A DNA stretch of 64,000 bases, from assembly GCF_020171525.1 (NCBI RefSeq), contig NZ_JAIVAI010000001.1, positions 558,001-622,000 of the forward strand, in the 5' to 3' direction. This stretch comes from Halobacillus yeomjeoni (GTDB taxonomy: Bacteria; Bacillota; Bacilli; Bacillales; Halobacillaceae). Of this stretch, positions 14,935-33,061 are shown in pieces (the first letter of the stretch is position 1; each line of letters starts with the position of its first letter). The notes under the pieces were generated by a model that was given only the letters and a program-made list of their open reading frames with translations, ran no database searches and was not told where the DNA came from. A program made the position numbers and the translations under genes.

Positions 14935-15402
14935 TTGGCTCTGTTAAAGTCTGTTGTTGATATTTTAAACGATTACTAAATAGTCCTCGTCTGGAATTTG
15001 GGGGCCGGTCTGTTATTCACTCAGAGCATGGGATGGCAGGGAAAACAGTCCGCTTTCCGCGGGGAACGCTGAGCCTCCTCGAACTTCGTTCTCCGGGGTC
15101 TCACCTTGTTCCTTTTTCCTGCAGGAGTCTACCTGTTTTCCCTGCCATCCCGTTCGTAGTTGGAGTACTGGACTTCGGTAATGGACTTTCCGCTCCTTCT
15201 ACTTTGAAGAGGCGGCCTTTTAGAATGGCGAGACTCCTGTGGGATAAAGGTACATCGTGAGACCCCGGAAGGCGAAGCCTGAGGAGGCTCACGGTACCCC
15301 ACGGAAAGGGAGTCATTCTAAAAGGCCGCCTCATACAAATTCCAGGACAGAAAGAGCGAATACAAGCTCCCAGGCGAAATAACAACACCAAGCAATAACA
15401 GA
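14935..15402 (+). repeat. Compound inverted-repeat element, copy 1 (about 468 bp)
   Basis: This intergenic element fills most of the 14892-15608 gap and is closely matched at 32644-33061. It has short terminal inverted repeats (TCTGTTGTTG at 14950-14959 and CAATAACAGA at 15393-15402, one mismatch). Inside are two hairpin modules. Module 1 is bounded by perfect 19-bp arms at 15030-15048 and 15133-15151. Module 2 is bounded by perfect 18-bp arms at 15210-15227 and 15314-15331. The two modules carry the same core of about 77 bp in opposite orientation (about 15053-15130 and 15231-15308). No transposase is encoded. It is probably a non-autonomous dispersed repeat of halophilic or alkaliphilic bacilli. 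Confidence 0.85.
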
Positions 15403-15608
15403 TCCTTTTATTTATATCAGCCGGTTTAAAAGCATCAAGTGAGGATCTACCGCGGATTCCCAAAGAAGTTTTAAAACCTGATTATATGAAATGATGAAGG
15501 AAGAATGAAAGTGCTTTGTTTTTTAATAGAAGCGTATACATGAACATGTTAAGATGGAAGAGTAATATGATGTAATTTTTTATGTAGAAATGAAATGGAG
15601 TGTACCCG

Positions 15609-16541
15609 ATGAAGATTGCTGTTCTATATGGAGGAACTTCAGGAGAAAGAGAAGTTTCTTTGTCAACCGGAAAGGGAATAATACAAGCGTTGAAAAATAA
15701 AGGCCACGATGTCGTGGGGATTGATTTTTCACCTGAAAAAATAAGTGAAATATTGAAATTGGACGTCGATATGGTTTTCATTGGATTGCATGGACGTTTT
15801 GGAGAGGATGGCAGGATCCAAGGGTTATTGGATATGGTTGGCCTTCCTTATGTCGGTTCAGGGGTTTTGGCGTCAGCTCTAGCCATGGATAAAGCTAAAT
15901 CCAAACAAATTTTTTCTTCAAAAGGCATTCTTACTGCCAGGAGTGAATCCTATGATGTAACGAAACGTGAAACCTTTGACTCTATTCAAAAACATATTGA
16001 AACAACCTTTAATCTGCCGTTTGTCATTAAGCCTAATCAAGAGGGTTCTACGCTCGGTCTTACCATAGTAAAAGAAGCTTCTCAAATTAGACAAGGAATT
16101 GAAACGGCAGCACAATCCGATTCTACCATTCTTGTAGAAGAATATATCGGTGGCCGTGAAGTAACTGTTCCAGTCGTAGGTCAAAAAGGTAAGGAGCAGG
16201 CTCTGCCTGTTATAGAGATCATTCCAAAGAATGATTATTATGATTTTGACTCAAAATATAAACCAGGTGGTAGTGAACACATCGTTCCCGCTCATCTTGA
16301 CTTACCTTTGACTGAACGTCTGAAAGAGGAAGCCGTTTTGGCACATCAATTGTTAGGTTGTGAAGTGTACTCTCGAGTAGACTTCATTATCAATGAGAAC
16401 AATGAACCGATTATTTTGGAAGTCAATACATTACCTGGCATGACCCCGACGAGTCTGTTTCCGGACTCCGCACAAGAAGTCGGATGGAGTTATGATGATC
16501 TTATTCAAAAATTCGTTGAGCTTTCCTCGTCTCATAAATAA
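15609..16541 (+). CDS. ddl: D-alanine--D-alanine ligase
   Basis: This ATP-grasp enzyme makes the D-Ala-D-Ala dipeptide for peptidoglycan. It has 310 residues, the short Ddl form. Motifs include YGGTSGEREVSLSTG (N-terminal), GLHGRFGEDGRIQG, FVIKPNQEGSTLG (ATP-grasp), a YDFDSKYKPG loop and ILEVNTLPGMT (metal ligands). The start is ATG 15609 behind ATGGAG; the upstream GTG at 15600 overlaps that site. In B. subtilis ddl lies elsewhere next to murF, so this location between mecB and gudB is different. It may be a second ligase copy or the only one. Confidence 0.93.
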   Translation: MKIAVLYGGTSGEREVSLSTGKGIIQALKNKGHDVVGIDFSPEKISEILKLDVDMVFIGLHGRFGEDGRIQGLLDMVGLPYVGSGVLASALAMDKAKSKQIFSSKGILTARSESYDVTKRETFDSIQKHIETTFNLPFVIKPNQEGSTLGLTIVKEASQIRQGIETAAQSDSTILVEEYIGGREVTVPVVGQKGKEQALPVIEIIPKNDYYDFDSKYKPGGSEHIVPAHLDLPLTERLKEEAVLAHQLLGCEVYSRVDFIINENNEPIILEVNTLPGMTPTSLFPDSAQEVGWSYDDLIQKFVELSSSHK

Positions 16542-16682
16542 GTCCCCTCGCAATCGCTTACATTTCGTAGGGGGAAACCTGTATTTTCCTCAATAACCGC
16601 TTTCCATAAGTGGTATGAGGGTGTATACTATTGACTGAAAGACGAGCCAGAAAGCGAATGGATGGATATAGGAGGTAAATGG

Positions 16683-17963
16683 ATGGTAGCCGATAAGCCA
16701 ACAGATTCTGCAAATGAGATTAACGATAAACTTGACGTGTTGAAGTCCACGCAAACGGTGGTCAAAAAAGCGCTTGATAAATTAGGTTATCCTAATGAAG
16801 TATATGAATTAATGAAAGAACCTGTACGGATGATGACCGTTCGTATTCCGGTTCGCATGGATAATGACCAAATTAAAATATTCACCGGTTTCCGTGCCCA
16901 GCATAACGATGCTGTCGGCCCGACGAAAGGTGGCGTACGTTTCCACCCTAACGTCAGTGAAAAAGAAGTAAAAGCTCTTTCCATCTGGATGAGCCTTAAA
17001 GCCGGTATCGTAGACCTCCCATATGGTGGAGGAAAAGGCGGTATAATCTGCGATCCGCGTGAAATGTCATTCCGTGAATTGGAAGGGGTAAGTCGTGGGT
17101 ATGTTCGTGCGATCAGCCAGATCGTAGGACCAACCAAAGATATTCCTGCTCCTGATGTGTTTACCAACTCTCAAATCATGGCATGGATGATGGATGAATA
17201 CAGCCGTATCGATGAATTCAATAACCCGGGATTCATTACAGGGAAACCGTTGGTGTTAGGCGGGTCCCATGGTCGTGAAACCGCCACAGCCAAAGGCGTT
17301 ACAATCTGCATAGAAGAAGCGGCGAAGAAAAAGGGGATAGAAGTCGAGGGCGCAAGAGTCGTCGTTCAAGGTTTCGGAAATGCAGGCAGTTTCTTAGCGA
17401 AATTCATGCATGATCGCGGAGCGAAAGTCATCGGTATATCAGATGCTTATGGCGGCTTACATGACCCGAACGGTTTAGATATTGATTACTTACTCGATCG
17501 CAGGGACAGTTTCGGTACAGTTACGAATTTATTCAAAAATACAATATCTAACGAAGAGCTGCTTGAGTTGGATTGTGATATTTTAGTCCCGGCAGCTATC
17601 GAGAACCAAATTACAGAAGATAATGCTTATAACATAAAAGCGTCTATCGTTGTAGAAGCAGCCAATGGGCCGACAACATTAGATGCGACTCGCATATTAT
17701 CAGAAAGAGGGATCCTGCTTGTTCCGGACGTGTTGGCCTCTTCTGGCGGGGTCACGGTTTCTTACTTCGAGTGGGTCCAAAACAATCAGGGGTATTATTG
17801 GACAGAAGAAGAAGTGGAAGAGAAGCTTCACAAAGTGATCGTCAAAGGGTTTGACAATGTCTATAACACTGCGGAAACACGCCGGGTCGATATGAGACTT
17901 GCCGCTTATATGGTCGGTGTACGGAAAATGGCTGAAGCTTCCAGGTTCCGTGGATGGGTATAA
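16683..17963 (+). CDS. gudB: NAD-dependent glutamate dehydrogenase
   Basis: Catabolic glutamate dehydrogenase converts glutamate to 2-oxoglutarate and ammonia. It has 426 residues, nearly identical in layout to B. subtilis GudB. The glutamate-binding PYGGGKGG motif with the catalytic Lys lies near residue 115, and the Rossmann GFGNAGS motif near residue 225. The active-site region EVKALSIWMSLKAG has no duplicated triplet residues, unlike the cryptic gudB of B. subtilis 168, so the enzyme should be active. Start ATG 16683 follows GGAGGT. The gene is monocistronic with a terminator after it. Confidence 0.94.
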   Translation: MVADKPTDSANEINDKLDVLKSTQTVVKKALDKLGYPNEVYELMKEPVRMMTVRIPVRMDNDQIKIFTGFRAQHNDAVGPTKGGVRFHPNVSEKEVKALSIWMSLKAGIVDLPYGGGKGGIICDPREMSFRELEGVSRGYVRAISQIVGPTKDIPAPDVFTNSQIMAWMMDEYSRIDEFNNPGFITGKPLVLGGSHGRETATAKGVTICIEEAAKKKGIEVEGARVVVQGFGNAGSFLAKFMHDRGAKVIGISDAYGGLHDPNGLDIDYLLDRRDSFGTVTNLFKNTISNEELLELDCDILVPAAIENQITEDNAYNIKASIVVEAANGPTTLDATRILSERGILLVPDVLASSGGVTVSYFEWVQNNQGYYWTEEEVEEKLHKVIVKGFDNVYNTAETRRVDMRLAAYMVGVRKMAEASRFRGWV

Positions 17964-17980
17964 GTTGATTTGATCCACAT

Positions 17981-18014
17981 AATCTCCTATCATTTGTATG
18001 GTAGGAGATTTATT
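17981..18014 (+). terminator. Rho-independent terminator of gudB
   Basis: The stem aatctccta / taggagatt with a short loop is followed by TATT; it lies 17 nt after the gudB stop. Confidence 0.75.
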
Positions 18015-18067
18015 ATGTTTATAAACAAGCTTATCAAAGCTTCTGTCCGGAAAGAGGAGTGTTGAAG

Positions 18068-19039
18068 GTGCAACAGGAAAAAGTCATTATTATCGGAGGC
18101 GGACCTTGCGGGATGAGTACCGCCATTGAATTAAAAAGAGAAGGCATCGATCCATTAATTATAGAAAAAGGGAACATTGTCAATTCGATTTATCATTACC
18201 CCACACACCAAACATTTTTCAGTTCCAGTGAAAAACTGGAGATAGGGAATATACCGTTTATTTCTGAGCGTCAAAAACCGGTTCGTAACGAAGCTTTAGC
18301 TTATTATCGGGCTGTGGCAGAGCGTGAATCTTTGAGAATTCATGCTTTTGAGAAAGTAGTAGGAGTAACGAAAAAAGATGGGGAGTTCGTCCTTGATACT
18401 GAAAAGAAGACAGGTGAAAAAGGGCGGTATACTGCTGGAAGTGTCGTTGTCGCGACCGGGTATTATGATCAGCCGAACTATATGGGAGTAAAAGGAGAAG
18501 AGCTGCCTAAGGTCATGCATTACTTCAAGGAAGCTCACCCATACTACAATAAAAATGTTGTTATCATAGGTGGAAAAAACTCCGCAGCCGATGCAGCTCT
18601 AGAATTAGAGAAAGCTGGTGCCAAAGTTACGGTTTTATACCGTGGAGAACAATACTCGCAAAGTATCAAGCCATGGATTCTGCCTCAATTTGAGGGTCTT
18701 GTGCGAAAAGGGATTGTTGATATGGAGTTTTGTGCACACGTGAAAGAGATTACCGATGATGAAGTCATCTATGAATGCAAGGGAGAAATTAAACGAGTTG
18801 CTAATGATTTCGTCTTTGCTATGACTGGTTACCGTCCTGATCATCAATTCTTGAAGAAAATGGGGGTTGAAATCGATCAAGAAACAGGTCGCCCTCATTT
18901 TAATGAAGATACAATGGAAACGAACGTCGAAGGAATTTATATCGCCGGTGTCATTGCGGCCGGATACAACAATAACGAAATTTTCATTGAAAATGGACGC
19001 CATCACGGCGGTAAAATTGCCAAGGATATGAAACAATAA
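18068..19039 (+). CDS. ypdA: YpdA, bacillithiol-disulfide reductase (FAD/NAD(P)H)
   Basis: This flavoprotein of 323 residues reduces bacillithiol disulfide with NADPH (Bdr). It has the FAD-binding GGGPCGMS motif at the N-terminus, the second dinucleotide motif VVIIGGKNSAADAALE near residue 165, and a C-terminal GVIAAG FAD motif. The cysteine in GGGPCG is the conserved N-terminal Cys of the family. GTG 18068 is the best-spaced start after AAAGAGGAG. bshA in the same window supports bacillithiol use by this cell. It keeps its B. subtilis position next to gudB. Confidence 0.92.
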   Translation: MQQEKVIIIGGGPCGMSTAIELKREGIDPLIIEKGNIVNSIYHYPTHQTFFSSSEKLEIGNIPFISERQKPVRNEALAYYRAVAERESLRIHAFEKVVGVTKKDGEFVLDTEKKTGEKGRYTAGSVVVATGYYDQPNYMGVKGEELPKVMHYFKEAHPYYNKNVVIIGGKNSAADAALELEKAGAKVTVLYRGEQYSQSIKPWILPQFEGLVRKGIVDMEFCAHVKEITDDEVIYECKGEIKRVANDFVFAMTGYRPDHQFLKKMGVEIDQETGRPHFNEDTMETNVEGIYIAGVIAAGYNNNEIFIENGRHHGGKIAKDMKQ

Positions 19040-19045
19040 TTGAAC

Positions 19046-19075
19046 ATCCCGGGGGTTGGCTCCGGGATTTTTCTT
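19046..19075 (+). terminator. Rho-independent terminator of ypdA
   Basis: The stem atcccgg(g) / (t)ccgggat is followed by TTTTCTT immediately after the ypdA stop. Confidence 0.85.
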
Positions 19076-19129
19076 CCTGATCCAAAGAATTGCTCCACGT
19101 ATACATATGACAAGAAGGGTGGAATTTTG

Positions 19130-20089
19130 ATGAGTAAAGTGGTTTTGTTGACGACTGGCGGAACGATAGCAAGTGTACCTAATGAAGAATCAGGTAAACT
19201 GTCTTCAGGAGCCTTGACTGGAGAGGAATTGGCTCGAATGCTGAAATTACCTACAGATATTGATGTCACGATTGAATCTGTGTTTCAAAAACCGAGTATG
19301 CATATCGCTTTTGAAGATCTGCTTTTACTTAAAGAAAAAATTGAACATTATTTCCAGGACCCTTCTATTTCGGGTGTCGTTGTCACTCACGGTACGGATT
19401 CACTTGAAGAAAGCGCATATTTTTTGGACTTAACCATTGATGCTTCCCGACCTGTGGTTATAACAGGATCTCAGCGATCACCTGGTGAAATGGGGAGCGA
19501 TGCTTATATCAATCTCCGCCACGCGATTTATTCAGCATGCAGTAAGGATTTGCATGATGCAGGCGCCGTTGTAGTTTTCAACGAACGAATTTTCCCGGCT
19601 AAGTATGTTAAGAAAGAACATGCATCCAACATTCAAGGATTCAACGCATTCGGTTTTGGGTACCTGGGGATTATCGATAATGATGAAGTTCATATTTATC
19701 AAAAGCCTATCAAGCGTGAAAATTATGATGTCGTCAAAGAAATACCTAGAGTGGATATAGTTAAAACATACTCCGGTGCTGACGGTACATTCATCAAAGC
19801 GGCCAGGGAAAGCGGAGCAAAGGGAATTATTTTAGAAGGGGTTGGGCGTGGACAAGTCGCCCCTGGAATGATGCCTGAAATTATAAAAGCTATTGAGGAT
19901 GGGATTACCCTTGTGGTTACGACAACTTCGGAAGAAGGGTCAGTATACACAACATATGATTACTTAGGGAGTGCCTATGACCTATATAAGCATGGGGTGA
20001 TTATGGGGGATGATGATGACAGCAAAAAGGCTAGGATCAAGCTTGCAGTCATACTAGCTTCAGATTATGAAGGGGAGATTACTTACTGA
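19130..20089 (+). CDS. ansA: L-asparaginase, type I-like
   Basis: This enzyme hydrolyses L-asparagine to aspartate and ammonia. It has 319 residues with both catalytic Thr motifs: TTGGTIAS near the N-terminus and VVTHGTDSLEE near residue 85. There is no signal peptide, so it is cytoplasmic. Start ATG 19130 follows AAGGGTGGA. It is a single gene between ypdA and prsW. The symbol follows common naming and does not imply orthology to the ansAB operon gene of B. subtilis. Confidence 0.88.
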   Translation: MSKVVLLTTGGTIASVPNEESGKLSSGALTGEELARMLKLPTDIDVTIESVFQKPSMHIAFEDLLLLKEKIEHYFQDPSISGVVVTHGTDSLEESAYFLDLTIDASRPVVITGSQRSPGEMGSDAYINLRHAIYSACSKDLHDAGAVVVFNERIFPAKYVKKEHASNIQGFNAFGFGYLGIIDNDEVHIYQKPIKRENYDVVKEIPRVDIVKTYSGADGTFIKAARESGAKGIILEGVGRGQVAPGMMPEIIKAIEDGITLVVTTTSEEGSVYTTYDYLGSAYDLYKHGVIMGDDDDSKKARIKLAVILASDYEGEITY

Positions 20090-20332
20090 TCGAGTCCACA
20101 TCCACCCAAAAAAGTTAAAAAACCCGCTGCTTTTAATAATGGGGTAATCATGAGTGGTAGGAAAGGTATAGATACGTGAATGAACAAATTTAATAGTAAG
20201 CATTAACACAACCTATCTAAATAAGACATCCAAATCCTTTACATGGTGTGAATTGGTATTCATTCTATCTTTCATCTCCTCTACGTGGTACGATAAATTG
20301 TAGTGGATACATTGAAAGAGGGCTGATGCACT

Positions 20333-20992
20333 ATGGCGATATTAACTGCGGCGATTTCTCCTGCTGTTGCGATCATGACATTCATCTATTTAAGTAAGCG
20401 GATCGAATTAGAACCTCTGCCGCTTATCATCCGAATGTTTGTCATCGGAGTCATTATGGTGTTTCCATTGACATTCATTCAATATGCTTTTGAAACGGAA
20501 GGTTTATTTCAAACCCCCTTTTTGAAGTCGTTTTTTTTAGCGGGAGCTCTGGAGGAATTTTTCAAGTGGTTCTTTTTACTATTTGTTGCCTTTCGTCATG
20601 CGGACTTTGATCACCACTATGATGGTATTATATATGGAGTGGCGATCAGCCTGGGGTTTGCAACTATTGAAAATATATTTTATATCTTATCTAACGGTAT
20701 TGAAATCGCTCTTCTTCGTGCCATCTTCCCTGTTTCTTCTCATGCCTTGTTCGGATTGATTATGGGCTATTACATGGGAAAAGCAAAATTTATCGATGCT
20801 TCAACAAGGTTGTCGCTCTTATTGGCCTTGATTATTCCTGTTTTTTTACATAGTTTTTATGACTATATGATAACAGCTTTGGAACATACCTGGCTTTACT
20901 ATATCACTCCATTTATGATCGTTTTATGGATTATCGGATTCAGAAAGATCCGCCTCGCCAATCAACATCATGAAAATATGATGAAACTATGA
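20333..20992 (+). CDS. prsW: Intramembrane protease PrsW (YpdC)
   Basis: PrsW makes the site-1 cut in the anti-sigma RsiW in B. subtilis, starting release of SigW. The 219-residue protein has about seven membrane segments, the catalytic pair E74-E75 in GALEEFFKWF, and conserved histidines in SSHALFG and FLHSFYDY. It keeps its position before sleB. sigW/rsiW are not in this window. The 243-base gap upstream holds no recognised gene. Confidence 0.9.
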   Translation: MAILTAAISPAVAIMTFIYLSKRIELEPLPLIIRMFVIGVIMVFPLTFIQYAFETEGLFQTPFLKSFFLAGALEEFFKWFFLLFVAFRHADFDHHYDGIIYGVAISLGFATIENIFYILSNGIEIALLRAIFPVSSHALFGLIMGYYMGKAKFIDASTRLSLLLALIIPVFLHSFYDYMITALEHTWLYYITPFMIVLWIIGFRKIRLANQHHENMMKL

Positions 20993-21003
20993 CCATGTTT
21001 GTC

Positions 21004-21033
21004 TAAACCGCCGTTACCGGCGGTTTTTTTATT
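21004..21033 (+). terminator. Rho-independent terminator of prsW
   Basis: The stem aaaccgccg / cggcggttt with a TTAC loop is followed by a T run, 12 nt after the stop. Confidence 0.9.
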
Positions 21034-21041
21034 AGGGGGCA

Positions 21042-21071
21042 TGTATAAAGTTCTCAATCAGATAGAAACTA
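21042..21071 (+). promoter_or_regulatory. Candidate SigG promoter for sleB-ypeB
   Basis: TGTATA (21042-21047), a 17-nt spacer and GAAACTA (21065-21071) resemble the forespore SigG consensus (TGMATA, about 18 nt, CATACTA) with mismatches. It lies 40 nt before sleB, which is SigG-controlled in B. subtilis. Confidence 0.3.
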
Positions 21072-21111
21072 GCGGTATCAATATATTACTTGGTGCAGAG
21101 GTGATCTACTC

Positions 21112-21945
21112 ATGATTTGGAAGAAGACGATAATCGTGTTCCTGGGTATGGCCATGTTGATTTTACCTTTCTCCGAATGGGCGACAGTCCAGCCGGTCCA
21201 AGGGTTTTCCAATCAAGTCATTCAAAAAGGTGCCGTTGGTGACGATGTCATAGAACTGCAATCCAGGCTTCAATATTTAGGTTTTTATAAGGGTAAGATT
21301 GATGGGGTGTTCGGATGGGGTACCTATTGGGCGGTCCGGAATTTCCAGTCAGAGTTTGGATTAGAGATTGATGGTCTCGTCGGGCAGAATGTAAAAGACA
21401 AACTAGTCAAGGCCAGCAAATATGATGAAGGTTATGTGAAAGAGCAAATCAGGCAAGGGAACGAATTCACGTATTATGGCGGCGTACCAAAAGAGCAGCA
21501 AACGAAACAAACGCAGCAGAAAACACAACAACAAAAAGCAGCTAAACAGCAGCCGCAGGAACAAACTGCTGTCAATGTTCCGAGTGGTTATTCCCAAAAT
21601 GATATTCAATTGATGGCTAATGCTGTATACGGCGAAGCCAGGGGGGAACCGTACGTAGGTCAGGTGGCTGTAGCGGCAGTTATTTTGAACCGAGTAAGCA
21701 GCGCCTCGTTCCCGAATTCGGTTTCCGGTGTCATCTTTGAACCCAGGGCGTTTACCGCTGTCAGTGATGGACAAATTTGGCTCACACCGAATGAACAGGC
21801 TAAAGAAGCTGTGTTAGATGCGATTAACGGCTGGGATCCTTCCGGGCAGGCATTATATTATTTCAACCCGAATACTGCGACTTCCAGTTGGATTTGGTCG
21901 CGTCCACAAATTAAACAAATCGGAAAACATATCTTCTGTAAATAG
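21112..21945 (+). CDS. sleB: Spore cortex-lytic enzyme SleB
   Basis: SleB is a lytic transglycosylase that degrades muramic-lactam cortex peptidoglycan during germination. It has 277 residues: a signal peptide (1-30, hydrophobic to AVQPVQGF), a peptidoglycan-binding domain (about 35-102, two GDDVIELQSRL-type repeats), a Gln-rich linker (about 125-152), and the SleB hydrolase domain (about 160-277, MANAVYGEARGEP with the catalytic Glu). It is followed after 11 nt by ypeB, its stabilising partner. Confidence 0.94.
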   Translation: MIWKKTIIVFLGMAMLILPFSEWATVQPVQGFSNQVIQKGAVGDDVIELQSRLQYLGFYKGKIDGVFGWGTYWAVRNFQSEFGLEIDGLVGQNVKDKLVKASKYDEGYVKEQIRQGNEFTYYGGVPKEQQTKQTQQKTQQQKAAKQQPQEQTAVNVPSGYSQNDIQLMANAVYGEARGEPYVGQVAVAAVILNRVSSASFPNSVSGVIFEPRAFTAVSDGQIWLTPNEQAKEAVLDAINGWDPSGQALYYFNPNTATSSWIWSRPQIKQIGKHIFCK

Positions 21946-21956
21946 GAGGTGGAAGT

Positions 21957-23297
21957 ATGCTGAGGACTATCATCATCATTATTCTTAGCCTTACGACAGT
22001 GGGTTCAGCTGTTTGGGGTTATAAAGAAAATCAAGATAAAAACGCCGTTCTGATACAGGCCGAAAACAGTTACCAAAGAGCTTTTCACGACCTCACTTAC
22101 AATATCGACTTATTGAACGATAAAATAGGCTCGACATTAGCCATGAACTCAAGAAAAAGCTTATCTCCACAGTTGGCTGAAATTTGGAAGATAACTTCTG
22201 AAGCCAATACGGATGTAGGACAGCTCCCGCTTACGCTCTTACCATTCAATAAAACTGAGGAATTTTTGTTTGATGTAGGAGATTTCGCTTATCGTACTGC
22301 GGTTCGTGACTTAGAGAAAAAGCCTTTGAGTGAAAAAGAAGTGGAAGTATTAAAGACATTGCACAAGCAATCAGGGGAGATACGTAATGAATTGCGCAAG
22401 GTTCAAAATGTAGTGTTAAAAGATAACTTGCGCTGGATGGACGTACAGCTCGCGCTTGCGACCAATGATGAGGTCGGGGATAATACCATTATAAATGGGT
22501 TCAAAACTGTAGAAAAATCCGTTGATGGGTATACACAGTCTACAATGGAAGCCGGGATGGGAAATCGCGGACCGGAAAAAAGTTTTCGATATTTAAAAGG
22601 GGACAAAGTCAGTGAGGAAGAAGTCAAAAAGATAGCCAGCAATTGGCTTGAAAAAGTAGATCCGTCTAAATTGACCATTACGAAATCCGGCAAAGGGGCC
22701 GATGTACCAACTTATACAGCCTCTTTCCAATCAGGAGAAAAGAATGGTTACATCGATTTAACGGAAAAAGGCGGACATCCATTGACATTAATGATCAGCC
22801 GTCCTCTAAAAGACGCAGAAATCAGTTTACATGAAGCGTCCAATAAAGCGGTAAAATATCTTGGTGGACTTGAAGTCGAAGGTCTAGAGCTGATTGAAAG
22901 CAACCAGTACGATAAATTGGGCGTGTTCCGTTTTGTTTACACGAAGGATGGAGTTCGTTATTACCCGGATTCTATTGTCGTGAAAGTTGCTTTGGACAAT
23001 GGGGAAGTCCTGGGATTGTCAGCTCGTGAGTATTACAATTATCATAATGATCGAGGCTTGAATGATCCTGAGATTTCTGAAGAAGAAGCCAAGACTAAAG
23101 TCAACCCGCAATTGAAAATACAAGAAAATTATTTAGCTGTCATAGAAAATGACCTTAAAGAACAAGTCCTTTGTTATGAATTTTTGACGACGATGGATAA
23201 TACAACCTATCGGATCTTTATCAATGCATCAAATGGAGATGAAGAGAAAATAGAAACTTTGAAAGAGGCTGAAGTCAAATTCAATAAAGATGTTTAA
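21957..23297 (+). CDS. ypeB: Germination protein YpeB
   Basis: YpeB is required to localise and protect SleB in the spore inner membrane and cortex. The 446-residue protein has an N-terminal membrane anchor or signal (residues 1-20) and a long helical N-domain. Three C-terminal PepSY-type modules (about 215-440) include SEEEVKKIASNWL and SEEEAKTKVNPQL. Length and gene order match B. subtilis. Start ATG follows GGAGGTGG. Confidence 0.93.
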   Translation: MLRTIIIIILSLTTVGSAVWGYKENQDKNAVLIQAENSYQRAFHDLTYNIDLLNDKIGSTLAMNSRKSLSPQLAEIWKITSEANTDVGQLPLTLLPFNKTEEFLFDVGDFAYRTAVRDLEKKPLSEKEVEVLKTLHKQSGEIRNELRKVQNVVLKDNLRWMDVQLALATNDEVGDNTIINGFKTVEKSVDGYTQSTMEAGMGNRGPEKSFRYLKGDKVSEEEVKKIASNWLEKVDPSKLTITKSGKGADVPTYTASFQSGEKNGYIDLTEKGGHPLTLMISRPLKDAEISLHEASNKAVKYLGGLEVEGLELIESNQYDKLGVFRFVYTKDGVRYYPDSIVVKVALDNGEVLGLSAREYYNYHNDRGLNDPEISEEEAKTKVNPQLKIQENYLAVIENDLKEQVLCYEFLTTMDNTTYRIFINASNGDEEKIETLKEAEVKFNKDV

Positions 23298-23302
23298 TGA
23301 TG

Positions 23303-23333
23303 AGACCACTAACTATTAGTGGTCTTTTTATTA
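23303..23333 (+). terminator. Rho-independent terminator of sleB-ypeB
   Basis: The stem agaccacta / tagtggtct is followed by TTTTTATT just after the ypeB stop. Confidence 0.9.
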
Positions 23334-24893: not shown

Positions 24894-24896
24894 GAA

Positions 24897-25481: not shown

Positions 25482-25580
25482 GGCGTAATCACTTGACAAA
25501 ATCGTCTAAATATTAGAAGTTAGACAAAAGGGCATTTCTGTATTTAAGGTTGTGTCGGAAATTGAAGGAGGTAGCTTGGT

Positions 25581-26723
25581 ATGGATGAAATGAATCAAGA
25601 AGTATCTGGAATGCAAGAATTCTCTGCAGGGGACATCGTGACGGGTAAAGTCGTCAAAATCGAAGAAAAACAGGTCCTTGTAGATGTTGGATATAAAGTT
25701 GAGGGGATTGTGCCCATTAGTGAATTATCCAGCCTTCATGTAGAAAAAGCTTCTGATGCAGTAAGTGAAGGTGACGAACTGACTCTACAAGTGAAAAAAG
25801 TGGAAGATGATGAAATCGTATTATCCAAACGTGCTGTCGATGCTGACAAAGCATGGGAAGACTTAGAAGCTAAGTATGAGAGTGGAGAAATTTTCGAAGC
25901 TGAAGTCAAGGATGTCGTAAAAGGCGGTCTTGTCGTTGATATCGGCTTAAGAGGATTCATTCCTGCTTCTCTTGTTGAAACCTACTACGTAGAAGATTTT
26001 GAGGATTATAAAGGTAAAACATTGACCTTGAAAGTCGTGGAATTGGATCGTGAACAGAATCGCGTCATCCTATCTCATCGTGCAGTAGTTGAGGAAGAAG
26101 AATCTGCGAAGAAACATGAAGTGCTTCAGTCTCTTGAAGAAGGACAAGTTGTGGAAGGGACGGTTCAAAGACTCACTGATTTTGGTGCTTTCGTAAATCT
26201 AGGAGGTATTGACGGACTCGTACATATCTCTCAGCTATCTCATCAGCATGTCGAGAAGGCCTCTGATGTAGTAGAAGAGGGTCAGCGAGTAGAAGTCAAA
26301 GTTCTTTCTGTAGACCGTGACAATGAAAGGATTTCCCTTTCCCTGAAGGCAACTCAACCTGGTCCTTGGCATGACATCCAAAATAAAGTTTCACAAGGCG
26401 AAGTTTTAAATGGAACTGTTAAACGCCTGGTAAGCTTCGGTGCATTTGTCGAAGTATTCCCGGGAGTAGAAGGTCTTGTGCATATATCTCAAATTTCCAA
26501 CCGTCATATCGGAACACCTGATGAAGTCCTTGATGAAGGTCAACAGGTGGAAGTGAAAGTCCTTGATGTAGATGAAAACGCAAAACGTCTTTCTTTAAGC
26601 ATGAAGGAATTGGAGCGGGACGAAGCTCGCGAAGAAATCCAACAGTATGAAAAAGAAGAGGACAACTCCGGCTTTTCTCTAAGTGACATGATTGGTGACA
26701 AACTGGACAAGTATAAAAAATAA
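25581..26723 (+). CDS. ypfD: S1-domain protein YpfD (ribosomal protein S1 homologue)
   Basis: This RNA-binding protein of 380 residues has four S1 domains: about 15-85, 102-168, 189-257 and 274-343. Repeats 3 and 4 are the most alike ([24 protein letters not shown] and [25 protein letters not shown] share the core). It is shorter than the six-domain proteobacterial S1, as normal for Firmicutes. A GGAGG site precedes the ATG. Confidence 0.92.
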
Positions 26724-26740
26724 AAGAGTTGGTGAAGGGT

Positions 26741-27769
26741 ATGTCAAGGTCTGAAAGAAAGATCGATCATATCCGCCATGCCTTAGGTCATGACCGCGAT
26801 TTCCACAATCATTTTGATGATATGGATATCGTTCATCAAAGTTTAGCTCAGCTTGACTTTGATCAACTCAGCATAGATGCACAAGTAGGGGAACTTAATT
26901 TAAGTTCCCCTCTTTTTGTTAATGCGATGACTGGAGGCGGCGGAGAGAAAACGGAAGAAATCAATAGAAAAATCGCTGAAGTGGCCAGCAGGACTGGAAT
27001 TGGTATGGCTGTAGGGTCTCAAATGTCAGCACTTAAAAATCCCGAAGAACGTACTACATACGAGGTGGTTCGCCGGGTGAATCCGGAAGGTGTCGTTTTT
27101 GCTAATATAGGTAGTGAGGGAACCATTGAACAGGCGGAAGAAGCGGTGGAAATGCTTCAAGCCGATGCATTGCAGATTCATATCAATACACTACAGGAGA
27201 TGATTATGCCTGAAGGGGATAGGGATTTCACTCAACGATTGGAGAAAATCGAACGTATCCTTAATGGTATATCCGTTCCTGTGATCATTAAAGAGGTAGG
27301 GTATGGAATGTCCAGGGAGACTGTCAAAACATTAAAGTCTCTTGGTGTAAACTATATCGATGTAGGGGGGAGAGGGGGAACGAACTTCTCAAAAGTTGAA
27401 AACATGCGAAGGAAAAAGCAGCTGGCTTCGTACAACAACTGGGGAATTCCCACTCCGGTATCGGTTTTGGAAGCCAGGGAAAACCACCCTGATATCCATA
27501 TAATAGGTTCGGGCGGTATCCGTAATGGGCTGGATGGCGTCAAAGCCATGGTGCTTGGAGCACAGGCCTTTGGAATGGCAGGAGCTTTGCTTAGAGTCCT
27601 TTTGGATGAAGGAGAGCAGGCTTTAGAGGATGAGATTCTCCATATCCATCACGAAGTGAAAGTTGCGATGATGCTGTTAAATATTACTGATGTAAATCAA
27701 TTCAAAGATCAACCGTATGTTTTGTATGGGAAAACAAAGGAATGGGTGGATCAGCGATTGAGTCGCTAG
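26741..27769 (+). CDS. fni: Type 2 isopentenyl-diphosphate delta-isomerase
   Basis: This FMN- and NADPH-dependent isomerase interconverts IPP and DMAPP for isoprenoid synthesis. It has 342 residues from ATG 26741 (behind GAAGGG). Motifs include VNAMTGG, the AVGSQ segment, HINTLQE, KEVGYGMS and GSGGIRNGLDG (phosphate and FMN binding). It supplies precursors for HepS/HepT in this same window. Confidence 0.93.
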   Translation: MSRSERKIDHIRHALGHDRDFHNHFDDMDIVHQSLAQLDFDQLSIDAQVGELNLSSPLFVNAMTGGGGEKTEEINRKIAEVASRTGIGMAVGSQMSALKNPEERTTYEVVRRVNPEGVVFANIGSEGTIEQAEEAVEMLQADALQIHINTLQEMIMPEGDRDFTQRLEKIERILNGISVPVIIKEVGYGMSRETVKTLKSLGVNYIDVGGRGGTNFSKVENMRRKKQLASYNNWGIPTPVSVLEARENHPDIHIIGSGGIRNGLDGVKAMVLGAQAFGMAGALLRVLLDEGEQALEDEILHIHHEVKVAMMLLNITDVNQFKDQPYVLYGKTKEWVDQRLSR

Positions 27770-27799
27770 CTTATGACTATAGTCATAAGCTTTTTTATT
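27768..27799 (+). terminator. Rho-independent terminator of fni
   Basis: The perfect stem agcttatgact / agtcataagct is followed by a T run and overlaps the fni stop codon. Confidence 0.9.
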
Positions 27800-27921
27800 T
27801 GAGATGTTTAAAGAAGGTTTTTTACCCCCATAATAAAGAAGAACTATATTTTTGAATGAATTATGGTTGTAATCGAAATAAATCGGTTTGAATGGCTTTA
27901 CATATGGGGGGCGATGGAGTC

Positions 27922-28512
27922 ATGGAAGCGGAATTTTATTGGTACAGCTGGGTGATTGTCATTATCCTCTTCTTCTTTACACAAAAAGCTTCAATAAGGA
28001 ATCCGCTCCTCCTTTTGTGCAGTCTTTTGATGATTACATACAATATTACTCCGTATTTTTCTGAACATTTCATGTATATTCATACCTTTACGATAGCTAT
28101 TTTTGGTATTTACTATTGGATAAGGAATAAAAAGCGATTTCTCTTACATGTATGGCCATTTGTCCTCAGTATAGGTTATACATCTATTCAATTGTTTTTT
28201 CTGGTCAATCCAGTATGGTTGGAGTTTCCGGGGTTATCTTTGTTGGTTTTCCTGCTTCTGTATATTTTTCACAAGTTTTCAGATAGCGTGGAAAGTTTGA
28301 TAGGAATGTGGTTCTTAGTGAATGCTTGTGGAACTTTATGGTCATACTCAGTCTTCTCGCTTTTTTCTTTAGAAGGGTTGATTGAAATGAACGTTATTCT
28401 GTTATTTGTCATACAAGGATTGTTGTGGATTCTGATCCTCAACGGGGTGGACCATTTGAAAGCAAAGGTACAAAAACAAAAGTCGAGGAAGAAAGGGGCT
28501 GCTTGGGTGTGA
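27922..28512 (+). CDS. yphA: Integral membrane protein YphA
   Basis: The 196-residue polytopic membrane protein has about six hydrophobic segments and a basic C-terminal tail (KVQKQKSRKKG). Start ATG 27922 gives the length of B. subtilis YphA; an in-frame ATG at 27904 lacks a ribosome site. The stop codon overlaps the next start (GTGA), so it is coupled to the YIEGIA gene. Function unknown. Confidence 0.75.
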   Translation: MEAEFYWYSWVIVIILFFFTQKASIRNPLLLLCSLLMITYNITPYFSEHFMYIHTFTIAIFGIYYWIRNKKRFLLHVWPFVLSIGYTSIQLFFLVNPVWLEFPGLSLLVFLLLYIFHKFSDSVESLIGMWFLVNACGTLWSYSVFSLFSLEGLIEMNVILLFVIQGLLWILILNGVDHLKAKVQKQKSRKKGAAWV

Positions 28513-29396
28513 ATGAATATACGTACCCGATCATATTCGGAATTATTGTAGGAACCGCAGTGCGCGTTTTTATGCTGAGAAGCGATTATCGTCAATACCC
28601 TACGTATTTACATGGTAAAATCATTCACCTCTCCCTCGGCTTTATTGCAGCTGGATTAGGGACAATCGCTATTCCTTCCATAATGGAGAAAGAATTCACA
28701 GCAGTTACCTTTTTGACATTGGCTGCTTCCCAATTTCGAGAGGTAAGAAATATGGAGCGGAATACGTTGACAGAAATGGACGCTTACGAACTTGTTCCGA
28801 GGGGAAATACTTATATTGAAGGCATCGCAGTGGCTTTTGAAAGCAGGAATTACCTTGTCATATTTACATCATTCACTGTAACCCTCTGTTACTTGGCTTT
28901 CAATATTTGGGTGGCAGTGATAGCCACCGTGTTCTGTTTTATACTTTCCCACTTCCTGATGAGTGGTTCGACTTTAGCGGATATCGTTGAAGTAGAACAA
29001 TCTGAACTTTCGTTCGATGGGGCTGGACTATATGTCGATAACATTTATATCATGAACATCGGACTGCCTGAACGACAGGAAGAAATTCTTAAGTACGGGA
29101 TGGGGTTTGTACTGACTCCGAAATCTTTCAGTGTCCGGTCTACAATTGCGAACTTGGGACAAAGACAGGCCATTCTGCACGACGTTTCGGTCACATTAGG
29201 AGTATTTCGTGATTCTGGAACCCCCGCCCTTGTTCCATTGATTAAAAGAGATTTGAATGATGGACGAATCGGTGTTTTTATTCTCCCACAAGAGAAGGAT
29301 CCTGTCAGGGCAAAAGAGATCATATCCGCGGTTCCCGTGCTTGAAAATGCTATTCAAATGCCGACCAAGAGGAAAGGGCGGGGGGCAAAAAGATGA
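28509..29396 (+). CDS. YIEGIA-family membrane protein (YphB position)
   Basis: The protein has 295 residues with several N-terminal membrane segments and the diagnostic YIEGIA sequence (near residue 106) that names the family. The C-terminal half is soluble. The start is GTG 28509, overlapping the yphA stop; TTG 28503 is an alternative. The family is confined to spore-formers and its members are usually next to the small capping-complex gene that follows here. Biochemical role not certain. Confidence 0.82.
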   Translation: MNEYTYPIIFGIIVGTAVRVFMLRSDYRQYPTYLHGKIIHLSLGFIAAGLGTIAIPSIMEKEFTAVTFLTLAASQFREVRNMERNTLTEMDAYELVPRGNTYIEGIAVAFESRNYLVIFTSFTVTLCYLAFNIWVAVIATVFCFILSHFLMSGSTLADIVEVEQSELSFDGAGLYVDNIYIMNIGLPERQEEILKYGMGFVLTPKSFSVRSTIANLGQRQAILHDVSVTLGVFRDSGTPALVPLIKRDLNDGRIGVFILPQEKDPVRAKEIISAVPVLENAIQMPTKRKGRGAKR

Positions 29397-29578
29397 AGAT
29401 GGAAAAAGCGATTCTCGCTACAATAACGACCCAATCCAATAAAGTTTCTGGAGGTACGGCTGTTTTTCATTGTGAAACGAAAGAAGAGATGGAAGCAGTG
29501 GCTGCAAACCTTGAAGCCATATTGGATGGGATTGCCCACGCGCTGAATGAGCAATTGTATATCATCGTCAAACATTGA
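29393..29578 (+). CDS. Small partner protein of the YIEGIA protein (capping complex subunit type)
   Basis: The 61-residue protein starts with ATG overlapping the previous TGA and is preceded by GGGCGGGGGG, a very strong ribosome site. It is soluble and acidic, with an ILATITT strand, a GGTAVFHCETKEEMEAV helix-strand unit and an LYIIVKH end. Proteins of this size and sequence next to YIEGIA genes are annotated as capping complex subunits. The stoichiometry implied by the coupling suggests a physical complex. Confidence 0.72.
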   Translation: MKMEKAILATITTQSNKVSGGTAVFHCETKEEMEAVAANLEAILDGIAHALNEQLYIIVKH

Positions 29579-29788
29579 TACAAAAGAATTTCAATTGAGT
29601 ATTCTTCTTATTTTTGCTAAAATAATAAAGTTAATGGCTATCTGCTGTTCTGTGGGATTGAAGGCTGTTCAACAGCATGACCATAGACGGCAGTATTTTT
29701 TTCGTCAAAAGGGGAGAACCCCTTTGACGTTTCCTTACTGAAAATACGTGAAATAATGAAATTAGAATGGGGAAAGGATGATCCTTTC

Positions 29789-31099
29789 ATGAGAAAATCA
29801 GTAGTTGCTATTGTAGGGCGGCCGAATGTCGGTAAATCGACGATCTTCAACCGCCTTGTAGGAGAAAGAATTTCAATTGTAGAAGATACTCCAGGAGTGA
29901 CAAGAGACCGTATATATGCTGAAGCAGAATGGCTGACCACTCGTTTCAATGTCATTGATACCGGTGGAATAGAGCTTGGAGATGAACCTCTTCTCGTTCA
30001 AATGAGAGAACAGGCAAACGTGGCAATCGATGAAGCTGACGTTATCATCTTCATGGTCAATGGACGAGATGGAATTACAGGTGCAGACGAAGAAGTAGCT
30101 AAAATTCTCTATAAATCCAACAAACCTGTTGTACTAGCAGTCAACAAAGTGGATAACCCGGAGATGAGAGAAAACATTTATGAATTTTACAGCTTGGGAT
30201 TCGGTGAACCTTTCCCGATTTCCGGAACACATGGGCTCGGACTTGGTGACCTGCTGGATGAAGCGGTTAAACACTTTCCAGAGAAAGTACAGGAAGAAAT
30301 TGATGACGAGACGATCCGTTTCAGCTTGATCGGACGCCCTAATGTAGGTAAATCATCCCTTGTTAACAGTCTCCTCGGTCAGGAGCGTGTCATTGTTAGT
30401 AATGTCGCAGGAACGACACGGGATGCCATTGACACACCATTTACTAAAGATGGCCGGGATTTCGTCATCATAGATACTGCGGGGATGCGTAAACGTGGAA
30501 AGGTTTATGAAAATACAGAACGATACAGTATCATGCGTGCTCTAAAAGCGATTGAACGTTCAGACGTCGTATTGACTCTGATTGATGCTGAGACGGGTAT
30601 ACAAGAGCAAGATAAAAAAATTGCCGGTTATGCTCATGAAGCAGGAAAAGCTGTCATTATCGTAGTAAATAAATGGGATACGATGGACATCAAAGAGAAT
30701 ACGATGAAAGAATTCGAGGATAAAGTCCGTTCTAACTTCCGATTCTTAGACTATGCGCCGATCGTGTACCTGTCTGCCAAAACTAAAAAGAGAACACATA
30801 CTTTGATCCCAAGAGTGGTGGAAGCAAGTGAAAATCATGCCAAACGCGTTCAAACGAACATTTTGAACGAAGTGATCATGGATGCTCTGGCTATGAACCC
30901 TGCGCCATCGATCAAAGGACAGCCATTGAAAATATTCTATGCAGCTCAAGTTTCCGTCAAGCCGCCAACGTTCGTGGTTTTCGTGAACGAACCTGAGTTG
31001 ATGCATTTCACCTATGAACGTTTCTTAGAGAATCGTATTCGTGAAGCCTTCGGATTTGAAGGTACACCGATTAAAATTTACGCACGTAAACGTAAGTGA
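29789..31099 (+). CDS. der: Ribosome-assembly GTPase Der (EngA/YphC)
   Basis: Der has two tandem GTPase domains and a KH-like C-terminal domain and acts in 50S ribosome maturation. It has 436 residues from ATG 29789, identical in length to B. subtilis Der. P-loops GRPNVGKS occur at residues 10-17 and 182-189, with DTPG/DTAG, NKVD and NKWD G-motifs in the two domains. An upstream in-frame ATG (29756) is not supported by homology. The 210-base leader (29579-29788) holds a hairpin at 29704-29730 whose role is unknown. Confidence 0.95.
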
Positions 31100-31124
31100 T
31101 TTCGAGAGAAAGGGAGTAGGTATC

Positions 31125-32165
31125 ATGGAAAAAGTAGCTGTACTGGGAGCTGGGAGCTGGGGGACGGCTCTAGCCATGGTTCTCGCTGACAATGGACATG
31201 AAGTGAGATTATGGTCACATCGACAGGAACATGCTGACGAGATTAATGCCACCCATAAGAATGAAAAGTATTTGAAAGGGGTGCAAATCCCTGAAAGTAT
31301 CCACGCAAGCAACGATTTGAGCAGTGTTGTCAAAGGTGTCAAACACATTATTTTGGTCGTGCCGACAAAAGCGATGCGGGAAGTCTGCAAGGATCTTGTA
31401 AATGTGATGGATCAGGAAGTGATTCTTACTCACGCATCGAAAGGGATTGAACCTGAAACCTATAAGCGTGTTTCGGAAGTCATTAAAGAAGAGATTCCGG
31501 ATAAGTTTTATGAAGATGTCGTAGTTTTGTCAGGGCCAAGCCATGCAGAGGAAGTCAGTTTACGTCAGCCGACGACTGTAACTGTCTCTGCTGCTGATAT
31601 TAAAGTAGCAGAAAAAGTCCAGGATTTATTCATAAACCGTAATTTTCGAGTATACACCTCCCCGGATCTGACAGGTGTGGAGCTTGGCGGAGCCTTAAAG
31701 AATATTATTGCTTTGGGGGCAGGGATCTCGGATGGCTTAGGCTACGGGGATAATGCAAAAGCTGCTTTAATCACCAGAGGTTTAGCTGAAATCGCCCGTC
31801 TAGGGACAGCGATGGGGGCGAACCCGCTCACCTTTTCAGGGTTGACTGGAATTGGTGATTTGATTGTGACATGTACGAGCTCTCACAGCCGTAATTGGAG
31901 AGCAGGGAACAAGCTTGGCCAAGGAAATGATCTCGAAGAAGTCTTAGAGCAGATGGGGATGGTTGTAGAGGGTGTGCGGACCACTAAAGCCGCTTATCAA
32001 CTTTCCAAAAATCAAAACGTAGAAATGCCGATCACTTCAGGCATATATCAAATCCTCTTTGAAGGTGCAGATCCTCGCGATGTAGTCGATCAATTGATGA
32101 CAAGGATCCGTCGCCACGAAATGGAGGATCTGACAAATATTTTAGATGAACAAATGAATGACTGA
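31125..32165 (+). CDS. gpsA: NAD(P)-dependent glycerol-3-phosphate dehydrogenase
   Basis: GpsA reduces dihydroxyacetone phosphate to glycerol-3-phosphate for phospholipid synthesis. The 346-residue protein has the dinucleotide motif [10 protein letters not shown] at the N-terminus, the [10 protein letters not shown] block, and [28 protein letters not shown] with the catalytic Lys. It follows der by 25 nt, as in B. subtilis, and supplies glycerol-3-phosphate to the pathway that includes PlsC. Confidence 0.94.
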
Positions 32166-32226
32166 CAAATGACTTCCTCAGTGCATATACTATCCAGAAC
32201 CTATTGCACGAGGAGGTCAACTGTAC

Positions 32227-32487
32227 ATGAGTGATTTTCAAAAGAACATTTTTGATCATTTGAAGAAAAAGGCGGACATTGATCCGGAGGATGTGTTCAA
32301 TGTCGCGAACTCTGTGCAAAATGCAGATTTCAGTGATGAAAAGACGGTGCGTCGATTAGTTCGTCAACTAGCCAAGGTTGCAAACAAACCAGTTTCAAAG
32401 AAGAAGGAAGATAAGATCGTAGAAGCGATCACAAAACAGAATATGCCACTTGATATGAACACTTTAAGCAAGTTTCTTAAAGGCTGA
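32227..32487 (+). CDS. SpoVIF-family sporulation protein (YphE position)
   Basis: The 86-residue protein is helical and basic (SEKTVRRLVRQLAKVANKP-like core with a KKKEDKIVEAI helix). It has the pattern of the stage VI sporulation protein F family found only in spore-formers. The start follows GAGGAGG. It lies where B. subtilis has yphE, after gpsA. Its precise function here is inferred from family only. Confidence 0.7.
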   Translation: MSDFQKNIFDHLKKKADIDPEDVFNVANSVQNADFSDEKTVRRLVRQLAKVANKPVSKKKEDKIVEAITKQNMPLDMNTLSKFLKG

Positions 32488-32585
32488 CGCAAAGTTGGGC
32501 ACCTGATGAGGCGGCCATTCATACAATTGCATACAATAACTCGCAGTAATCATTATATATGAGCTGTGCGGGGATTATTTAGTCA

Positions 32586-32620
32586 ACCGGAGCAATACGT
32601 TTGCTCCGGCATTTTCTTGT
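32586..32620 (+). terminator. Rho-independent terminator after the SpoVIF-like gene
   Basis: The stem ccggagcaa / ttgctccgg is followed by a T-rich tract. It lies 99 nt after the stop and just before repeat copy 2. Confidence 0.8.
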
Positions 32621-32643
32621 GTTTGACAGCGTGTCTTTATTCT

Positions 32644-33061
32644 TTGGCTCTGTTAAAATCTGTTGTTGATAGTGTCCGGTCCGTTATTTACTGAGTGCAT
32701 GGGATGGCAGGGAAAACAGTCCGCTTTCCGCGGGGAACGCTTTAGCCTCCTTGAACTTCGTTCTCCGGGGTCTCACCTTGTTCCTTTTTCCCGCAGGAGT
32801 CTACCTGTTTTCCCTGCAATCCCTTTCGTAGTTGGTGTAACGTACTTGGGTTATGGCCTTTCTGACCCTTCTACTTTGAAGAGGCGGCCTTTTAGAATGG
32901 CGAGACTCCAGTGGGATAAAGGTACATCGTGAGACCCCGGAAGGCGCAGCCTTAGGAGGCTCGCGGTACCCCACGGAAAGGGAGTCATTCTAAAAGGCCG
33001 CCTCATACAAAACCCAGGGAGGAAAGCTCACATGTGAAATAACACCACCAAGCAATAACAG
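32644..33061 (+). repeat. Compound inverted-repeat element, copy 2 (about 418 bp)
   Basis: This copy has the same order and orientation as copy 1 at 14935-15402. Terminal repeats are at 32659-32668 and 33052-33061. Module 1 arms are at 32701-32719 and 32805-32823 (one mismatch). Module 2 arms are at 32882-32899 and 32986-33003 (perfect). It is about 50 bp shorter, mainly because the segment after the left terminus is missing. Most internal differences are single-base. It fills most of the 760-base gap 32488-33247; the rest (33062-33247) shows no gene. No coding capacity is supported. Confidence 0.85.

Follow-up and report, generated by a model that had tools for sequence, protein, structure and literature searches.

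The window, the whole 64,000-nt stretch of the Halobacillus yeomjeoni genome that was analysed, carries two copies of an element in which two mutually inverted hairpin modules lie between terminal inverted repeats (TIRs) (Table 1). Both copies were found where the initial annotation had placed them, in the same order and orientation, and they are 94% identical over 66 nt and 92% identical over 283 nt. Copy 1 (14937-15405, 469 bp, GGCTCTGTTA...AACAGATCC) is flanked by 8-bp target duplications, and no clear target duplication was seen by eye around copy 2. The terminal repeats that had been described are present, but the ends quoted for them, TCTGTTGTTG and CAATAACAGA, stop slightly short of the real ones. 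The only open reading frame of at least 100 aa over copy 1, with 120 aa, has no Pfam match up to an E-value of 0.1.

Table 1. Coordinates of the element copies and their parts in the window.
Feature	Position	Strand	Remark
Intrinsic terminator of upstream gene	14904..14932	+	read by eye; copy 1 lies in its T-rich tail
Copy 1 insertion site (L001)			scored as abutting a terminator-like hairpin; relatives have similar terminators without the element
Left target-site duplication, copy 1	14929..14936	.	TTTTATTT
Left terminal inverted repeat, copy 1	14937..14963	+	GGCTCTGTTAAAGTCTGTTGTTGATAT; relatives have intact IS1595-family elements with similar ends
Module 1 5' arm, copy 1	15030..15048	+	100% complementary to 3' arm
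Module 1 core, copy 1	15049..15132	+	CGCTTTCCGCGGG...GAGCCTCCTC...GGGGTCTC...CAGGAGTCT
Module 1 3' arm, copy 1	15133..15151	+	
Module 2 arm, copy 1	15209..15227	-	module 2 reads on the - strand
Module 2 core, copy 1	15228..15313	-	diverged homologue of module 1 core
Module 2 arm, copy 1	15314..15332	-	
Right terminal inverted repeat, copy 1	15379..15405	-	
Right target-site duplication, copy 1	15406..15413	.	TTTTATTT
Copy 2 (L025)	32646..33062	+	left-spacer deletion, degenerate right end
Module 1, copy 2	32701..32823	+	arms 32701-32719 / 32805-32823, one mismatch
Module 2, copy 2	32881..33004	-	arms 32881-32899 / 32986-33004, perfect

A MITE-type element and its IS1595 relatives

A genome search, in which 40 of 155 candidates were scored, located the element as full or partial copies in at least about 40 places. 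The outcome named beforehand as fatal to the idea of a mobile unit, namely two copies only with no arm covariation and no single modules elsewhere, is contradicted by this number, by covarying arms and by the existence of one-module elements. At many loci, TIR pairs starting with GGCTCTGTTA... are accompanied by 8-bp AT-rich duplications, and at 33 distinct sites 7 or 8 of the 8 duplicated bases match. The other listed elements of the genome measure 104-581 bp, except for one of 1079 bp that contains a transposase remnant. The comparison of empty sites in relatives, which the initial annotation had recommended, revealed that most relatives have no core at either place: 20 of 21 relatives lack it up to 700 nt from site 1, and 19 of 21 up to 760 nt from site 2. 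TIR-like motifs with up to 2 mismatches were found within 700 nt of site 1 in two of the 21 relatives (L304 and L306). The features that define a MITE are thus all observed, i.e., TIRs with target duplications, multiple copies without a transposase gene and sites that are empty in relatives; the window copies belong to a MITE-type multicopy transposon, and the non-autonomous mobile unit suspected in the initial annotation is supported. Insertion sites fall in the tails of intrinsic terminators in 17 of 33 cases, compared with 3-6% in controls, a preference that would explain in a simple way how the element can spread while harming genes little.

Relatives contain intact IS1595-family elements that have similar ends and are bordered by perfect duplications (L072, 951-2569; L077, 506-2504), and the L072 protein scores 211.9 bits against NF033547, where the cut-off is 75. 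In the present genome, a remnant of this transposase with 69% identity over 75 aa lies within an element bounded by TIRs and target duplications. PF12762, the domain searched for to find an intact IS1595 transposase, has no match in this genome, which is 98.5% complete and so leaves its absence uncertain; 6 of the 61 genomes examined have a match. ISL3 was rejected as the parent family because PF01610 has no match here and the IS1595 elements of relatives share similar ends. By eye, none of the palindromes listed from inside four IS1595 loci resembles the core. Since no intact transposase was found in this genome, we infer, rather than observe, that the element is moved in trans by a transposase of the IS1595 family.

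Structure and distribution of the hairpin modules

Module 1 has 19-bp arms, as annotated, and the arms of module 2, given as 18 bp, are really 19 bp long. The mutual complementarity described for the two loops was found as well: it reaches 79% across 78 nt in copy 1, and 76% across 59 nt in copy 2. The accompanying picture of one core shared by two unrelated stems has to be replaced: the modules are homologous hairpins, each with its own arms and core, inverted with respect to one another. The core is itself an imperfect palindrome, and each module has arms of its own sequence that pair with one another.

Folding was computed for copy 1, as DNA. The modules as single-stranded DNA, on either strand, reached z-scores of -6.6 to -8.3, with none of 200 shuffles as good. 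Folded alone, they have energies of -31.6 and -39.3 kcal/mol, and the predicted minimum free energy (MFE) structure of the whole copy is one large hairpin of -99 kcal/mol, so that the single large hairpin proposed as an alternative fold appears energetically possible for copy 1. A one-module element (L051) and a module-less element of 104 bp (L063) both have perfect target duplications, which suggests that insertion does not strictly require switching between two hairpins and one, or indeed the modules themselves, unless modules disappeared at a later time.

The supposition that arm pairing is conserved was borne out by compensatory changes. Outside this genome (n = 151), pairing with the arm's own partner scored 9.67 compared with 3.48 for swapped partners, the maximum of 20 shuffles being 3.71. 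In an RNAalifold alignment of 50 diverse modules, 13 of 27 consensus pairs have changes on both sides that keep the pair, and the same 50 modules contain 26 invariant columns, the core boxes, together with conserved mismatches.

Within the family, 38 of 44 genomes carry the module, and it was found under 27 genus names; many related genomes have anything from a handful to well over a hundred copies. The core pattern is matched 73 times in this genome, against 0 for a reversed-pattern control. Among the 82 distinct modules of this genome, 32 sit inside elements bounded by TIRs and target duplications and another 42 lie no more than 450 nt from one or more end-like motifs. The same core recurs in shells with different ends, for example of the GGCTGTTTTCGTAAA and TTTCGAGAC types, while the arms change and covary. 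The unnamed module might be a cis-acting DNA device shared by MITEs that differ in their ends, perhaps acting through HUH (RAYT) proteins, where a folded DNA signal, read by its sequence boxes and with free choice of paired arms, would let a passenger transposon spread; we consider this broader form doubtful. A phage origin was rejected, with no match in 50,697 phage records or in a pattern scan of viral contigs, as was plasmid spread, with 4 matches in 72,556 plasmid records, of the core alone and covering 17% of the query. Self-termination by the module was likewise rejected, as no T-run was seen by eye directly after the arms.

The covariation could instead reflect RNA folding, the module being a structured RNA, such as a regulatory, processing or transcription-blocking hairpin, that is carried by the MITE. 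Besides the compensatory changes, two consensus pairs are conserved as U-G in 50/50 and 49/50 modules, and the remaining pairs of the RNA-optimised alignment of 50 modules comprise 29 G-U and 14 A-C. Many insertions lie directly past a terminator, in a position where any read-through transcript would include the module. When each module keeps its own register and G-T and A-C are scored equally, however, the wobble excess vanishes: 14 G-T against 24 A-C in 79 distinct arms (p = 0.14) and 5 of each in the apical loops. Another arm count gave 23 and 47, respectively, and 140 terminator-like hairpins, used for comparison, have 51 and 15. Of 14 elements with tandem neighbour genes, 9 have module 1 on the strand of those genes, which shows no clear bias. 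A known Rfam family was rejected, with no match in the window at the gathering score and sub-threshold matches at chance level, none convincing, in the copy 1 stretch. As these tests point in opposite directions, RNA stays a candidate, which we regard as unlikely.

Module conservation and a possible role in spread

MITEs are usually viewed as ends plus filler. Here, divergence in the spacers is about 4 times that in the modules. Two-module copies located by left end and left spacer alone number 17, window copy 1 among them, and in all 17 the modules are less diverged than the spacers, with regional values of 1.2-3.8% in the former and 8.0-10.1% in the latter. The histories of modules and spacers agree (Mantel 0.41 and 0.52, compared with 0.37-0.55 between spacers), which speaks against homogenisation alone, and on this basis the idea that gene conversion by itself keeps the modules conserved was rejected. 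Shared variants occupy 45 of 246 module sites and 130 of 169 spacer sites, whereas for private changes the difference is 1.7-fold (94/8552 in modules against 107/5641 in spacers), and the private-to-shared ratio differs between the two (Fisher p = 2.8e-5). The low divergence of the modules comes mainly from depletion of inherited variants. With "private" defined within the 23 best-aligned copies, modules have 66 changes in 246 sites and spacers 88 in 169, and constraint in place is therefore possible as well.

Perfect palindromes could also be kept by replication slippage and template switching in modules that have no function, with spacers appearing fast through subfamily structure and misalignment. 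Among 12 distinct compensated arm changes, eight are confined to one copy each, the pattern expected of one-step template switching, and core 1 is inverted in three copies; template-switch correction, instead of selection, could be the source of the perfect arms. Such correction would erase the core boxes and the conserved mismatches, however, and the slower evolution of modules was measured in copies located without using modules, which makes a lack of function improbable.

Our preferred reading, held with slightly better than even confidence, is a MITE moved by IS1595 in trans whose cargo is a module working in cis as folded DNA. An IS1595-family transposase would recognise the GGCTCTGTTA... 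ends, make 8-bp duplications and insert preferentially into the AT-rich tails of intrinsic terminators. The cargo is two inverted hairpin modules of a kind found across Bacillaceae and relatives, built as fixed core boxes inside a long, imperfect palindrome and flanked by arms whose sequence varies while their pairing is kept. More tentatively, the module may act in cis as a folded DNA hairpin, in single strands or as a cruciform, and the transposase or a host protein may have to recognise it for the element to spread; lineages with broken modules would leave few descendants, and resident copies would decay. That constraint is much stronger in the interior than in the spacers, and shows mainly in inherited variants, points to a cis-acting part used during spread, and the module is probably a DNA hairpin needed at that stage. 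The system would offer a clean, testable case of hairpin recognition by a transposase, or otherwise a large class of structured RNA that has escaped recognition.

Comparison with known systems

The module could alternatively be a REP/REPIN-like unit, mobilised by a chromosomal RAYT (TnpA-REP, HUH) and later lodged in MITE shells. The 17 genomes of the genus that carry a RAYT-like Y1 gene, this one included, all have 7-180 core matches (at least 13 in 16 of them), compared with 4-16 in five same-genus genomes without such a gene (Mann-Whitney p = 0.005, which is not independent because the genomes are related). According to PMC8266576, REPs are recognised as folded single-stranded DNA, with a conserved bulge in E. 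coli. However, a core lies within about 2 kb at only 1 of 20 fetched RAYT loci (21 genes), three tested Y1 proteins score 67.5, 66.3 and 55.9 against the NCBIfam RAYT cut-off of 80, and most modules are enclosed by or close to TIR ends, as described above. The GTAG tag of REPs, which stands 5' of the palindrome, was rejected: among 202 modules, 5 have it within 8 nt of the arms on one side and 2 on the other, with about 4 expected by chance on each side. The link between RAYT and modules is only correlative, and such an origin is very doubtful.

As far as the consulted parts of PMC3733652 and PMC8266576 describe them, REP, BIME and REPIN units resemble the modules as high-copy imperfect palindromes with conserved mismatches and inverted pairs. 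In the present genus, RAYT-like genes are found in most module-rich genomes. In contrast, the module measures about 120 nt and a REP 20-50. RAYT genes are typically flanked by palindromes, some by unrelated TIRs (PMC3733652), whereas here they are unflanked, the GTAG tag is missing and the modules lie mostly in or beside TIR elements.

IS1595-family MITE-type elements share with the present element the TIR GGCTCTGTTA... and 8-bp AT-rich duplications; the difference lies in the long structured modules, more constrained here than the spacers. Bcr1, NEMIS, ERIC and RUP are, like the present element, short non-coding elements beside genes that are able to fold. They probably differ from it in ends and sequence. 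Structured MITEs of the Bcr1 type differ further in that here one core is found in shells with different ends, with covarying arms. All four, Bcr1 being that of B. cereus, are named in PMC3733652. Bhal-1, a 74-bp structured repeat of Bacillus halodurans with 36 copies, is similar in size, host class and conserved fold, as judged from its description in the part of PMC2267715 consulted, where no mobile element is described for it. By that description, and not by sequence, Bhal-1 may be the present core in another host.

Mobile element, parent family and target choice

Both copies of the element reported in the window by the initial annotation were present as described, with minor corrections only, and its view of a non-autonomous mobile unit was upheld: the element is of MITE type, as judged by pairs of terminal inverted repeats (TIRs) with duplications, many copies, and core-free sites in relatives. 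It is multicopy in this genome rather than limited to these two copies. A full-length query returned 119 matching pieces in the 3.27-Mb genome, including at least 40 long forward matches at separate places, some of them partial (40 of 155 candidates scored), while the end motif GGCTCTGTTAAAG, allowing at most one mismatch, occurred 120 times compared with 0 for a reversed-pattern control. Among the matches listed, the closest named one was from Halobacillus litoralis (L122), which makes Halobacillus the probable host genus.

Coordinates of the window copies and of associated features
Feature	Location	Description
Copy 1	window 14937-15405	469 bp, between 8-bp duplications TTTTATTT
Insertion site of copy 1	window 14904-14936	terminator of upstream gene, with copy 1 in its T-rich tail
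Copy 2	window 32646-33062	without part of left spacer; right end worn
Arm-like stretch	window 32504-32519	16-nt resemblance to module 2 arm, upstream of copy 2 by ~130 bp; may be left over from a further copy
Palindrome	L077 1285-1344	60 nt, inside IS1595-family element
Y1 transposases	L246 (G000:C6:51501-51836 and 59436-59762)	two, RAYT-like, 274 and 197 aa, ~8 kb apart

TIR pairs were listed with at least 6 of 8 duplicated bases, and 33 distinct sites had 7 or 8 of 8. The elements detailed measured 104-581 bp, plus one of 1079 bp (L060) carrying a transposase remnant. This remnant is 69% identical over 75 aa (E 4e-23) to the transposase of L072, assigned to the IS1595 family by NF033547, indicating IS1595 as the parent family. 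Intact IS1595-family elements in relatives (L072, L077) have similar ends and perfect 8-bp duplications; a domain search of this genome found neither IS1595 nor ISL3 transposase domains. Empty sites were compared in 21 same-genus genomes, most of which lacked the core at either site: it was absent at the orthologous site of copy 1 in 20 and of copy 2 in 19, and TIR-like motifs lay near site 1 in two. In several relatives (e.g. L297, L300, L308-L315), site 1 has the terminator and no element.

A terminator-like hairpin with a T-run adjoined 17 of the 33 insertion sites. Two control sets of 2000 positions each, taken from the regions flanking 30 copies, gave 59 for random positions and 114 for positions following AT-rich octamers (3-6%). 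Insertion favours intrinsic terminators, at their T-tract or AT-rich tail. By rough ORF calling, 14 of the 18 elements were placed between tandem genes and two within an ORF. A derivative with an identical deletion of most of module 1 was observed at five loci (L041, L044, L046, L065, L286), three with 8/8 and one with 7/8 duplicated bases; since these are different sites with duplications, it seems to have transposed once module 1 was mostly gone.

Form and distribution of the hairpin module

The initial annotation had described one core in both orientations; the inverted relation holds, and the cores belong to two homologous hairpins, modules 1 and 2, which are mutually inverted. Nor are copies of single modules missing elsewhere. 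Of 61 genomes examined, counting this one, 46 gave core matches, and an exact core pattern was present in 38 of 44 family genomes, with 0 to 180 occurrences per genome and none for the control. The core also occurred in at least 118 stretches under at least 27 genus names, which we take to be mostly Bacillaceae and Planococcaceae. One Arthrobacter-labelled contig (L181) carries a module, possibly through mislabelling or contamination.

Modules are housed in elements of at least two end kinds, GGCTSTGTTAAA and GGCTGTTTTCGTAAA, with 8-bp duplications for either. No end of either kind was recognised at 80 of the 114 modules from named genomes or at 26 of the 37 from further relatives. Ends of the GGCTGTTTTCGTAAA kind also occur at L071, a locus with an IS1595 domain. 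In relatives G002 and G010, two inverted modules lie inside elements with TTTCGAGAC-type ends (L229, L240, L242-L244). The arms of the L077 palindrome match the GAAGACTCAGTTTCGAGA ends of TTTCGAGAC-type elements, of which it may be a short relative or relic. At three loci (L036, L067, L274) the module 1 core is inverted beside a native left flank, compared with 42 copies in native orientation; by eye, L036 and L067 resemble module 1/module 2 chimeras, as though arms had recombined.

Constraint and pairing within modules

In 35 copies, retained from 43 supplied loci for a single aligned piece of 300 nt or longer, divergence from consensus per site ranged, by region, over 2.8-5.5% in modules and 9.8-17% in spacers and ends. 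Because selection of copies by their modules was to be avoided, the left end and left spacer alone were also used as query. Both modules were present at 17 of the 30 loci obtained, and they evolved more slowly than spacers in all 17 (left end 2.4%, being part of the query; right end 6.8%); at the remaining 13 a module was wholly or partly missing, or diverged. Distances among modules track those among spacers. Inherited variants occupied 45 of 246 module sites versus 130 of 169 spacer sites, an approximately fourfold depletion, and private changes were 1.7-fold lower in modules (0.011 vs 0.019 per cell). Private rates were equal (0.0098 vs 0.0101) when the 23 best-aligned copies were counted against all 35, and lower in modules when counted within those 23 (66 in 246 sites vs 88 in 169). 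Selection on spreading lineages is the simplest reading of the constraint, while selection in place is possible.

Arm covariation was assessed in 241 modules (233 distinct) collected by a pattern demanding core boxes, and arms paired better within modules than with swapped partners: mean score 11.9 versus 3.9-4.2 overall, 9.67 versus 3.48 outside this genome and 16.0 versus 7.6 inside it, means that include the 14 lowest-scoring modules (3 or less). RNAalifold, applied to 50 of 97 dissimilar modules (the window's copy and 49 random draws), found both sides changed in 13 of 27 pairs. Among the 233 distinct modules one core pair switches as a unit (C-G 162, T-A 63, intermediates 3 and 3, other 2), as does a second (G-C 214, A-T 11, intermediates 3 and 2, other 3). 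Arms of this genome's copies showed 12 distinct compensated versus 3 uncompensated doubles, and single-sided changes were commoner than compensated ones (28 private, 11 shared).

The evidence on whether the module acts as DNA or as structured RNA is divided, with a lean to DNA. Under scoring neutral between G-T and A-C, the 79 distinct arms retained from 261 modules held 14 and 24 of these, respectively, and apical hairpins 5 and 5; a further arm count (202 of 233 modules) gave 23 and 47. Terminator-like hairpins of named loci gave 51 and 15, so the missing G-T excess in arms counts against RNA. A structured RNA is favoured by two positions kept as U-G and by the remaining pairs of an RNA-optimised alignment (29 G-U vs 14 A-C), whose alignment and structure were picked by an RNA energy model. 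Of 14 elements, 9 had module 1 on the same strand as the tandem genes beside it.

Comparison with REP/RAYT and other repeats

Y1 transposases were found in 47 of 61 genomes examined, and core matches were more numerous in 17 same-genus genomes with a RAYT-like gene than in 5 without (p = 0.005, kinship ignored). The longer Y1 protein of L246 has a C-terminal HTH_23 match barely above cut-off. In PMC3733652 and PMC8266576, RAYT genes flanked by palindromes and a GTAG tag are typical of REP systems, whereas here the core flanked RAYT genes at 1 of 20 loci and no such tag was found at the modules. PMC3733652 also reports no obvious correlation between transposase presence and repeat families. On these grounds the module was not assigned to REP/RAYT systems. 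No description of the module was found in the literature searched, most subscription papers being beyond reach, and novelty is unproven. Bhal-1 of B. halodurans, described in PMC2267715, might share the module core.
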